DNA of 32,094 bases from a virus: IMG/VR virus record IMGVR_UViG_3300044953_000554, positions 1 to 32,094 of that record. The stretch is one strand, 5' to 3'. The notes under the pieces were generated by a model that searched no databases, was not told the DNA's origin, and was given only the letters and a program-made list of their open reading frames with translations. Both the position numbers and the translations under genes were made by a program. Shown in pieces: positions 1,442 through 4,169 of this stretch; position 1 is the first letter of the stretch; every line of letters begins with the position of its first letter.

Positions 1442-2170
1442 GTGCCCGACGCGCCTGCGAGCTACGTCTACTTCATCCGCGCTGGCGGCGACGGGCCGAT
1501 CAAGATCGGGACGACGGCCGGGTCGCCGCACGGACGGCTGCGTGCGATGCAGACGGCAAACGCTGAGACACTCGTGTTGCTCGCCGCGGTTCCGGGCGAC
1601 GTGGGACTCGAGCGAAAGCTCCATGAGCGCTTCGCCGCGCTACGCATGCGCGGCGAGTGGTTCCGAGCGACGCCCGAACTGCTCGCCTTCGTGGAAGGAG
1701 CGAGCCTCACGGCGCCGCCCGTGGAAGAGGGTATCGATCCGCTTGCCGGACTCGACTTCACCGAACACCACGCGCAGGCGCTCGAGGGGTTTCTCGAGGC
1801 GTGGTGGACGCTCAAGATGGGCGAGCGGCTGCTCGGTCACGTCCCGTTTGGTGAAGCCGGTGGCTACGACGCCGGCGAGCTGCCGCACGGGCTCGTGGTG
1901 GCGCTCGGAGACGCCCTCAGCGACGTCCGGTGGCTAGACGGTCTTCGTGCCAGACAGGCCCCGGACGGCAGCGGCGCACGCGCGCTCCCGAACGTCGTTC
2001 CTCGCCTGGCAGCGCTAGCGCGGTCACTCGAGGAGGCGATCGAGGGGCACTCCTCGGCCGTCGCGGAGTGTCGCCTTGCCGAGGCCGCGCACGAGGGCTT
2101 CGATCCGTGCACGGACGAGAGTCCGTTGGAGGCCGACCTCACCGCCGCCCCGCCGGAGGCGTGGAACTGA
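1442..2170 (+). CDS. T5orf172/MUG113-type GIY-YIG domain protein
   Basis: 242 aa from GTG 1442, with a good GGGAGGTG ribosome binding site at 1426-1433. Residues 8-90 carry the T5orf172-type GIY-YIG fold: YVYFI at 8-12, then IKIGTT at 20-25, a conserved arginine in the next helix (GRLRAMQ), then LERKLHERFAALRMRGEWF. GIY-YIG domains are nuclease folds, and this subfamily is common in phages and mobile DNA. The following about 150 residues are helical and acidic and match nothing I know. The stop overlaps the next ATG. Possible roles are phage recombination or host-DNA attack; cleavage activity is inferred from the fold only. Confidence 0.72.
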   Translation: MPDAPASYVYFIRAGGDGPIKIGTTAGSPHGRLRAMQTANAETLVLLAAVPGDVGLERKLHERFAALRMRGEWFRATPELLAFVEGASLTAPPVEEGIDPLAGLDFTEHHAQALEGFLEAWWTLKMGERLLGHVPFGEAGGYDAGELPHGLVVALGDALSDVRWLDGLRARQAPDGSGARALPNVVPRLAALARSLEEAIEGHSSAVAECRLAEAAHEGFDPCTDESPLEADLTAAPPEAWN

Positions 2171-3294
2171 TGCGTTGGGAGGAGGAGCGGTACGTTCGCG
2201 TCTACACGCGCGAGGAGCCCGAGTGGACGCTCCTCCCGTTCGAGTCACGCCTGCTTTGGTGCGACTTGATGAAGCGATTCGACCGCGCCGGCCTCTTGCC
2301 GCTTGGCCGGTCTCGGTGGCGTGGGGTCGCATCGATCTGCCGTGTGCCCCTCGACTTCGTCGAGCGCGCCATGCCCGCGCTGCTGGGAGATGGCTGCTGT
2401 CGCCTGGTCCCCGATGACAAGGGCGGCGAGATGCTCTTCGCGCCGAACTACATGGTCGCCCAGGAGGCGACCCAGTCGGACGCGGCCCGCCAACGCGCCT
2501 CGCGAGAGCGCGCGCGCGACCGGGCCCGCGCAAACGAGCTTGGGCTCGTGTCACAAAACGTGACAGACCCGCCCGATTTCGAGGTGTCACAAAACGTGAC
2601 GGAGGCGTCACGAGACGTGACGGACCCGTCACGAAACGATCCAGATCCGTCACGCGCCGTCACGCGCTGTCACTCTGTGCCTAGCCTAACTGTGCTTAAC
2701 CAAGAACAAACAAACGGGGCTTTCGCCCCGTCCGGGCCTGGCGGCCCGGGTACCTCTTCGACGACCGCGGAAGGCACTCATGACGAGGCCAGCCGACCCA
2801 CGCTTGAGTCGAACCGGCCCGCTCCGCCATCCGCCGGACAGGCGCGCCCCACCCAGCAGGCCACGCAGCTCGCGCTCGTCGCACCCGAGGCCAAGCCAAA
2901 GACGCCGTCGCAGGCGGACTTGGTCTTCGCCCGCTACGAGCAGGGATGGCGCCGCCTCATCGAGGGCGGGCGAGCCCCGGTCCTCAGCGAAGCCCGCCGG
3001 CGACTCATCGCCCGCCGGCTGAAGGACGGTCTCTCGCTCGAGGTTCTCCTCGCGGCCGCCGACGGCGTTTGGCGCAGTCGTTGGCACGTCGAGAACAACC
3101 GGTACCAGTTCGACCTTGTGTTTCGCGACGTAGAGCACGTCGAGCGGTTTGCGAACCAGGCGCACGAGGTTCTGCCGGGGGCGGGTAGTCGCGGGCGGCA
3201 CGACGTCCAGCGCGGCTCGGCCGACCACGCCGCTTGGGCCGAAACTTCCGAGCGCCTTCATGGCCGCGACGACGGCAGAAAGGACACGTTTTGA
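2170..3294 (+). CDS. lambda-O-like replication initiator containing the putative origin
   Basis: 374 aa from ATG 2170 (TGATG overlap with the upstream stop). Residues 1-100 look like a winged-helix DNA-binding domain. A very basic Arg-rich helix follows at about 100-125, then a low-complexity linker in which a seven-residue pattern recurs (QNVTEAS, RDVTDPS, RNDPDPS), then a Pro/Ala-rich stretch. Residues about 250-360 form a compact C-terminal domain (LSEARRRLIARRLKDGLSLE, then WRSRWHVEN) resembling the conserved C-terminal domain of phage replication proteins. The linker repeats come from 21-bp DNA repeats in frame, the arrangement known from lambda O, whose gene contains ori. The AAA+ loader downstream supports the role: initiator binds origin, loader brings the replicative helicase. 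Confidence 0.72.
   Translation: MRWEEERYVRVYTREEPEWTLLPFESRLLWCDLMKRFDRAGLLPLGRSRWRGVASICRVPLDFVERAMPALLGDGCCRLVPDDKGGEMLFAPNYMVAQEATQSDAARQRASRERARDRARANELGLVSQNVTDPPDFEVSQNVTEASRDVTDPSRNDPDPSRAVTRCHSVPSLTVLNQEQTNGAFAPSGPGGPGTSSTTAEGTHDEASRPTLESNRPAPPSAGQARPTQQATQLALVAPEAKPKTPSQADLVFARYEQGWRRLIEGGRAPVLSEARRRLIARRLKDGLSLEVLLAAADGVWRSRWHVENNRYQFDLVFRDVEHVERFANQAHEVLPGAGSRGRHDVQRGSADHAAWAETSERLHGRDDGRKDTF
2549..2673. repeat. iteron cluster with 21-bp and 10-bp phasing
   Basis: The left half-site GTCAC starts at 2550, 2586, 2607, 2628, 2649, 2659 and 2669 (steps 36, 21, 21, 21, 10, 10). The right half-site GTGAC starts at 2560, 2596 and 2617. The first unit, TGTCACAAAACGTGACA (2549-2565), is an inverted repeat with 6-bp arms and a 5-nt spacer. 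Copies at 2585-2601 and 2606-2622 keep the palindrome, the copy at 2627 has lost its right arm, and the last three are half-sites. Steps of 21 and 10 bp place all sites on nearly the same helix face, as expected for cooperative binding of a protein. Confidence 0.82.
2714..2731. repeat. perfect 7-bp hairpin beside the A/T-rich stretch
   Basis: ACGGGGC (2714-2720), loop TTTC, then GCCCCGT (2725-2731). It lies inside the initiator coding frame, so it is unlikely to be a terminator. It could mark the edge of the unwinding region or serve as a priming or loading structure. Confidence 0.6.
2732..2749. repeat. second perfect 7-bp hairpin
   Basis: CCGGGCC (2732-2738), loop TGGC, then GGCCCGG (2743-2749). 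It starts at the base after the first hairpin ends and has the same stem and loop sizes. The pair is unusual enough to suggest function, though short GC-rich stems do arise by chance in such DNA. Confidence 0.5.
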
Positions 3295-4169
3295 GCCTCA
3301 CGACGAAGATCGCCACGAGCCTCGACGCGGCACGGGCACGCCCCCCCGGGTGCGCCGACCAGCCGGCGAAACGGCTGGTGGAGTTGCTGGCGGATGCCGG
3401 GTTCGACCCGACGGTGCCACCGCCCGAGGCGTCGCGCACGTGCGCTTCGGGTTGCGGCGCGTCGGTCGCGCGGCGCGGCGACTACTGCGACGGGTGCGCA
3501 GCGCTCGGCCGCTTTCGGCACCGGAGCATGGCGCTCGAGCGCGCCTACGCGTCGGTGTCCGCGGGGGGGAAGATGACCTTCTGCCGGCCCGGCTGGCCCG
3601 AGTACGAGGCGGCGACGCGCAAGGCGCGCGAGGCCGCTGCGCGCCTGCCCGAGCCCACTGCGCGCGAACGCGCGATCGAGGTCATCGACGGCGCGCTCTG
3701 GAAGCGCACGCACGGCAACATGACGATCCTCGGCCCCACGGGGTACGGCAAGAGCAAGGTCCTGCGCGCCATCGGACTGCGCGTCATCGACCTCGCGCTT
3801 TACGGCGAGGTGGACAAGGACCGCCACGACTTCGCGCGGCGCGTTCGGTACGCGTATGGGCTCGACCTCGCGCGAGCCCGCGCGGCATCGAAGCTCGGGG
3901 AGGAACCAGCGGCGTTCGCGGAGGCACGGGCGGCGTCGTTGCTCTTGCTCGACGAAATCGGCTTCGAGGACCAGCGAACAGATCCCGTGGCGATTCGGGA
4001 CCTCGTGTACTGGCGCTACGACAACGGCCTGCCCACCGTCGTGACGAGCGGCTCCAAGATCGCCGAGCTCGAGGCGCGCTACGGCGAAGCGACGATGCGT
4101 CGCCTTTGGGAGGGAGGCCGGCTCGTGGACCTGCACGCGGCGCCGAGGCCGGAGCGCGGGCGAAAGTGA
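3291..4169 (+). CDS. DnaC-like AAA+ helicase loader
   Basis: 292 aa from TTG 3291, chosen because AGAAAGGA (3277-3284) is well placed and TTGA overlaps the initiator stop; upstream in-frame ATG 3234 would overlap that gene by 60 bases. The N-terminal part has a four-cysteine pattern, C51-x3-C55-x10-C66-x2-C69, a probable zinc site like those in DnaC/IstB-type and lambda-P-adjacent loaders. The ATPase core has Walker A GPTGYGKS at 148-155, Walker B LLLLDEIG with D221/E222, and a sensor-like VVTSG strand. Loaders of this class deliver the hexameric DnaB-type helicase to an origin bound by the initiator. The neighbours fit that role. Confidence 0.8.
   Translation: MSLTTKIATSLDAARARPPGCADQPAKRLVELLADAGFDPTVPPPEASRTCASGCGASVARRGDYCDGCAALGRFRHRSMALERAYASVSAGGKMTFCRPGWPEYEAATRKAREAAARLPEPTARERAIEVIDGALWKRTHGNMTILGPTGYGKSKVLRAIGLRVIDLALYGEVDKDRHDFARRVRYAYGLDLARARAASKLGEEPAAFAEARAASLLLLDEIGFEDQRTDPVAIRDLVYWRYDNGLPTVVTSGSKIAELEARYGEATMRRLWEGGRLVDLHAAPRPERGRK

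Follow-up and report, generated by a model that had tools for sequence, protein, structure and literature searches.

A candidate replication origin of phased GTCAC half-sites inside the initiator gene of a myovirus-like phage

The initiator gene and its neighbours

The DNA analysed here (IMG/VR virus record IMGVR_UViG_3300044953_000554; 32,094 bases, hereafter the window) carries the gene set of a contractile-tailed phage, with PHROG matches for terminase, sheath, tape measure and baseplate proteins. On the + strand, positions 2170–3294 encode a putative initiator of 374 residues (P0001), assigned from PHROG matches, an N-domain alignment and an AF2 model. The protein is divided into an N-terminal winged-helix domain (codons 1 to about 100; alignment of 31 sequences, AF2 pLDDT 86), a basic helix (codons about 104–123), a linker that encodes the candidate origin (codons about 124–180) and a variable C-terminal helical domain (codons about 240–330). 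The stop codon of the preceding gene overlaps the initiator ATG, and the alignment of relatives starts at that methionine. P0001 has no significant match in Pfam or NCBIfam, and its C-terminus gives weak PHROG matches to a replication initiation protein (8.8e-5) and an O-like protein (3.3e-3); the putative identity as an initiator rests on relatives, these matches, the predicted fold and synteny. The next gene (3291–4169, + strand) encodes a DnaC-like helicase loader (AAA ATPase; phrog_50, 6.5e-11).

Immediately upstream, a GIY-YIG (MUG113/T5orf172) gene at 1442–2170 ends at the initiator start codon, as does its counterpart at 941–1378 of L137 (L-numbers denote the compared IMG/VR sequences). 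In L145 (3001–4248) a homologous GIY-YIG domain (45% identity, 82 residues) lies inside the initiator itself, between the winged helix and the array, so that this protein joins a DNA-binding domain to a T5orf172-type domain. Its make-up is the same as that of Odn, the origin-directed nuclease of phage ICP1, which combines an initiator DNA-binding domain with T5orf172 (PMC8263062). Upstream of the replication genes, a 165-residue open reading frame (68–565) gives a match to the DnaA C-terminal helix-turn-helix (PF08299, 7e-7) that does not reach the cut-off.

The N-domain model folds as a winged helix followed by the basic helix. Its best structure matches are 4pql (Z 9.0; rmsd 6.5 over 95 residues), 4pt7 (Z 8.2) and 5kbj (Z 8.2), with 4pta also among the best; the matched entries are titled N-terminal domain of DNA binding protein, Structure of initiator, Rep-DNA complex and MDR initiator, and we take them to be staphylococcal RepA proteins. 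The best match among viral models is a Replisome organizer, and the fold also resembles MarR/CodY-type regulators. The N-domain is a predicted winged helix resembling plasmid RepA initiators, a likeness qualified by the commonness of winged helices: others match at Z 7–8, and a Z of 9 lies only modestly above unrelated repressors. The model of the C-domain is of low confidence (pLDDT 65, best Z 4.6), and its fold is not interpretable.

The half-site array and the stretch 3′ of it

Within the linker, ten GTCAC/GTGAC half-sites occupy 124 bp (2550–2673), starting at 2550 (+), 2560 (−), 2586 (+), 2596 (−), 2607 (+), 2617 (−), 2628 (+), 2649 (+), 2659 (+) and 2669 (+), exactly where the original prediction had placed them and with the left half-site steps it had given (36, 21, 21, 21, 10 and 10 bp). 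By their positions these half-sites form iteron dyad 1 (TGTCACAAAACGTGACA, 2549–2565), dyad 2 (TGTCACAAAACGTGAC, 2585–2600), dyad 3 (CGTCACGAGACGTGAC, 2606–2621), a half dyad 4 whose right half is degenerate (CGTCACGAAACGATCC, 2627–2642) and three GTCAC direct-repeat half-sites on the + strand, 10 bp apart and in three different codon frames (2648–2673); all three codon offsets of the pentamer are represented in the window. A lattice of 10/10.5 bp runs through 2586, 2596, 2607, 2617, 2628, the degenerate position 2638, 2649, 2659 and 2669, and the first dyad (2550/2560) is set off from the second by 26 bp, or about 2.5 turns. In the rest of the window, four half-sites are the most that any 125 bp contain. 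Markov copies of the whole window (n = 200) reach a maximum of five per 125 bp and synonymous codon re-draws of the same peptide (20,000 trials) a maximum of eight, with a mean of 4.0, so that ten half-sites are explained neither by base composition nor by the peptide. Chance and coding constraint are excluded as the source of the array in the window.

The array is followed by a 5-bp tandem repeat (GTGCC-TAGCC-TAACT-GTGCT-TAACC; 2677–2701, + strand), recognised by its lag-5 identity across relatives, in most of which 5-bp units, chiefly TAGCC and GTGCC, adjoin the last half-site on its downstream side. Across 34 members, identity at lag 5 is 0.446 vs 0.27 in control coding DNA and at lag 3 it is 0.205 vs 0.30, and 5 is the best lag in 24 of the 34; the combination of raised lag-5 and lowered lag-3 identity indicates that codon periodicity is overridden. 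On this comparative evidence the 5-bp repeat, overlooked in the original prediction, is a putative second element of the locus. It opens a candidate unwinding element at 2675–2716, delimited by A+T content and stability (56–62% A+T in DNA of 69% G+C). The A/T-rich stretch of the original prediction is real (62% A+T at 2681–2714, where 40 bp are the least stable of the locus and among the least stable in the window), but A+T richness is only part of its character, since it begins with the tandem repeat. The matching stretch of the relatives lies, at the median, within the least stable 4%, and several of them have no A+T richness there. The two adjoining 7-bp hairpins, ACGGGGC-TTTC-GCCCCGT (2714–2731) and CCGGGCC-TGGC-GGCCCGG (2732–2749), both on the + strand, are perfect and fold as claimed (z −3.5), but they are not conserved: stems of at least 7 bp occur in 15% of relatives vs 6.6% of random stretches, and we do not count them as a conserved part of the locus.

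Conservation of the lattice among relatives and in other initiators

A scan of viral contigs with P0001 alone returned no close relatives. Three matches of the half-site pattern scan described below share its N-domain, and the resulting four-sequence alignment yielded two peptide patterns within the first 17 residues; by these patterns only, and hence blind to the array, 34 IMG/VR relatives were fetched, three of which are the seed contigs again (L136, L137, L148) and several of which are near-copies (L138–L144). A GTSAC cluster (at least three sites in 150 bp) lies directly after the N-domain in 33 of the 34, L128 and L146 having three sites only, and also in all four genome contigs (by title, MAGs of Chloroflexi, Burkholderiales, a beta proteobacterium and Deltaproteobacteria). 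In the non-redundant set GTSAC reaches 71 per kb in the array vs 2 per kb outside it, 167 of the 205 adjacent spacings are 10, 11, 20, 21, 31, 32 or 42 bp, and the three codon frames are used 99, 74 and 61 times. Neighbouring half-sites most often form direct pairs (64 at 10 bp), followed by inward dyads (42 at 10 bp) and outward pairs (16 at 11 bp). In 29 of 34 cases GTCAC is the half-site closest to the downstream element, and a de novo search over all pentamers returns GTCAC as the best-lattice pentamer in 29 of 35 members. L145, the sole initiator with an inserted nuclease domain, has array steps of 7, 10 and 7 bp (3634–3750), unlike the other members.

Depending on its frame, the pentamer reads VT, SR/SQ or CH/GH in the relatives, and both linker peptides and C-termini vary (the latter fall into 27 groups, mostly singletons, in an all-against-all comparison) while the lattice stays. 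The expectation that relatives would keep the GTSAC phasing while codons vary is thus mostly borne out, with all three frames in use. The further proposal that a 21-bp step of seven codons couples the sites to the protein linker fails, as relatives use 10-, 11- and 20-bp steps in three frames; the linker peptide is a by-product. The sole relative without GTSAC (L124) carries GACAC/GTGTC seven times, six of them linked at 10–11 bp, and in its sister L128 GACAC and GCCAC alternate at 10/11/10 bp, the two forming a clade (support 100/99). That the whole L124 array changed by one base together is predicted by selection through a binding protein and not by a constraint on the peptide.

Among the ten relatives whose next gene was tested, five encode a DnaC-like loader there, four a DnaB-like helicase and one a primase. 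For L135 the match to the PHROG replication initiation protein reaches 3.1e-28. No recognisable relative of the N-domain was found in the isolated-phage collection.

The lattice extends beyond this family. Scanning IMG/VR with GTSAC-N5-GTSAC-N6-GTSAC-N5-GTSAC (10/11/10 bp) gave at least 120 stretches, most within one open reading frame, vs 11 matches in all IMG/VR for an off-phase control (12/13/12 bp), a contrast smaller than the raw counts suggest because 92 proteins among the matches listed are one cluster and the control matches are unclustered. Those 92 constitute an E. coli-prophage group, and the proteins fall into 24 clusters among the matches listed. Phage copies of the E. coli-prophage group are annotated DNA replication protein O, phage replisome organiser or primosomal protein I; other GTSAC proteins match Phage_rep_org_N (L024, 4e-21; L033, 1e-10) or DUF1376 (L093). 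Some of the 24 clusters (for instance L031, L059, L066, L072 and L087) look like chance matches or non-initiator frames and are not counted as evidence. The E. coli prophage proteins (for example those of vB_EcoS-689R5 and Tritos) share GTSAC, the 10/11-bp lattice and its place in the initiator linker with the window, but their N-domain has no significant similarity to that of the window, and after their arrays a 6-bp NNAGAT repeat takes the place of the 5-bp repeat. Other GTSAC initiators also have a tandem after the array, of 7 bp in L044 and 5 bp in L119; besides the TAGCC/GTGCC units of the window family and NNAGAT, the lineage tandems include 5-bp AAGAC and 7-bp TTCAGAG. We found no description of a GTSAC phage iteron in the literature, a weak absence given that subscription literature lay outside our coverage. 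A tentative reading, which we hold to be possible although the odds lean against it, is that these are variants of one widespread phage origin design, in which GTSAC serves unrelated-looking N-domains and each lineage's own short tandem would act, beyond mere A+T richness, as a sequence-specific element for strand opening or helicase loading, a phage counterpart of the DnaA-trio.

Interpretation of the locus and known systems

Positions 2549–2716 are very probably the replication origin of this myovirus-like phage, placed inside the gene of its own initiator. An iteron-type origin within an O-like initiator gene, as originally predicted, is the best reading of the relatives, the synteny and the modelled fold. 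A GC-skew switch, which the original prediction had offered as a check, is not clearly seen at the site in this linear record, possibly a partial genome. In the mechanism we propose, the winged-helix N-domain would bind GTCAC half-sites spaced by one helical turn, so that initiators could line up on the same side of the DNA and bend it. The direct-repeat half-sites that end the array are oriented towards the 5-bp-repeat and A+T-rich stretch, which would open; the swappable C-domain may then pass the opened strand to the adjoining DnaC-like loader or, in some relatives, straight to a phage DnaB-like helicase. Any residues that the DNA sites happen to encode would be tolerated in the linker.

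An operator role, in which the wHTH protein or a phage repressor would regulate its own operon through the array and replication would start elsewhere, is improbable. The sequence alone is compatible with a purely regulatory function, lambda O-type operons are tightly regulated and the fold has its likeness to MarR/CodY-type regulators, but the sites lie 380–500 bp inside the gene rather than at a promoter, as many as 12 phased half-sites precede a repeat/unwinding element, a helicase or loader gene adjoins, and the layout is the same as that of the annotated phi80 and lambda origins. Slimmer still is the chance that the array serves partition (as a centromere-like site), packaging or incompatibility and lies in the initiator gene by coincidence; phased repeat arrays also occur in centromere-like sites and origins can double as incompatibility elements, yet in 34 relatives the site accompanies the N-domain and keeps its position within the gene. 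Selection of the linker as a low-complexity peptide (VSQNVT/ASRDVT), with the DNA repeat as a side effect, would suit the window, where two frames account for most of the repeated sites, which read VSQNVT/SRDVT. Across the family, however, the pentamer is distributed over three frames, which already refutes this reading; the depressed lag-3 and raised lag-5 identity downstream, the failure of synonymous re-draws to reach ten sites and the persistence of the lattice over varying linkers and C-termini likewise leave it virtually no probability.

The candidate origin reading gives phage initiators that are unnamed in Pfam and NCBIfam, and not found in the isolated-phage collection, an origin recognisable from sequence, and it offers a clear instance in which selection on the DNA prevails over the genetic code in three frames. 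The switch from GTCAC to GACAC within one clade would be a natural handle on how the winged helix reads its site, and the short tandem beside the iterons gives a way to test which features make an opening element in phages rich in G+C.

Several systems resemble the window in part. The initiator of Acinetobacter phage fEg-Aba01 (annotated putative repressor) has a weakly related C-domain (3e-3), linker repeats at 10-bp steps, then a short tandem, and a helicase gene next; its repeats are of AACCC type, however, its tandem is an 8-bp AACCATCT and no similarity to the N-domain of the window was detected. A related C-domain with a different repeat is consistent with module exchange. E. coli K-12 ydaU in the Rac prophage (L157, 10500–10660) has linker repeats of the TGTTCAAACA type followed by a C/G-rich inverted repeat; it has no GTSAC array and was rejected as a GTSAC origin, and its repeats are possibly an embedded origin of another specificity. 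The BstA/aba element was likewise discarded, its repeats being unrelated. In RepA_N plasmids the N-terminal winged helix binds boxes in its own gene and a genus-specific C-domain contacts the primosome; in pSK41 the Rep boxes are central in rep and the peptide of the linker can be dispensed with (PMC5703833). The window has central sites too and a predicted winged helix that may be of the same fold, whereas the phage context, the C-domain and the loader differ, and RepA_N (PF06970) has no match in P0001 or six N-domain relatives. Phage_rep_org_N (PF09681/TIGR01714) has none in the window and falls below cut-off in the relative L126 (0.038 and 0.0086), and PF09681 has no match in four genomes holding relatives.

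The closest parallels in layout are phi80 and lambda. The phi80 origin (JX871397) has four annotated gp15 sites inside gene 15, and thus iterons inside an O-like initiator gene as in the window, with 20–21-bp steps, a 10/11-bp half-site lattice and a short A+T-rich stretch 3′ of the sites; it differs in its half-sites (TTCCC/GGGAA), its lambda P-like rather than DnaC-like loader (gene 14, next), the Phage_rep_O N-domain of gp15 (6e-25) and the lack of a 5-bp TAGCC/GTGCC repeat. The lambda origin likewise lies inside gene O, between the DNA-binding and loader-binding domains (PMC7466680, PMC6022878), and complementation survives when O proteins carry small in-frame deletions within the A+T-rich part (PMC6022878). 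P0001 has no match to Phage_rep_O (PF04492) at E ≤ 1, and with its other iteron and other loader it falls outside the lambda O family by sequence. The site sequence differs from that of lambda, as originally noted, the lattice pentamer being GTCAC and not CCCTC (nor the TTCCC of phi80). The difference in spacing noted with it does not extend to the architecture: the lambda dyad CCCTC-AAAAC-GAGGG and GTCAC-AAAAC-GTGAC of the window are both 15 bp long with an AAAAC spacer, carried in the window by dyad 1, and lambda half-sites, like those of phi80, lie about 10 bp apart, with 10/11-bp steps within and between most dyads. Lambda has four separate dyads, a purine-asymmetric A+T tract and the P loader, whereas the dyads of the window run into direct half-sites. 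We accept that the candidate embedded, self-encoded origin would work like those of lambda O and phi80 gp15, with which it has the 10/11-bp lattice in common.
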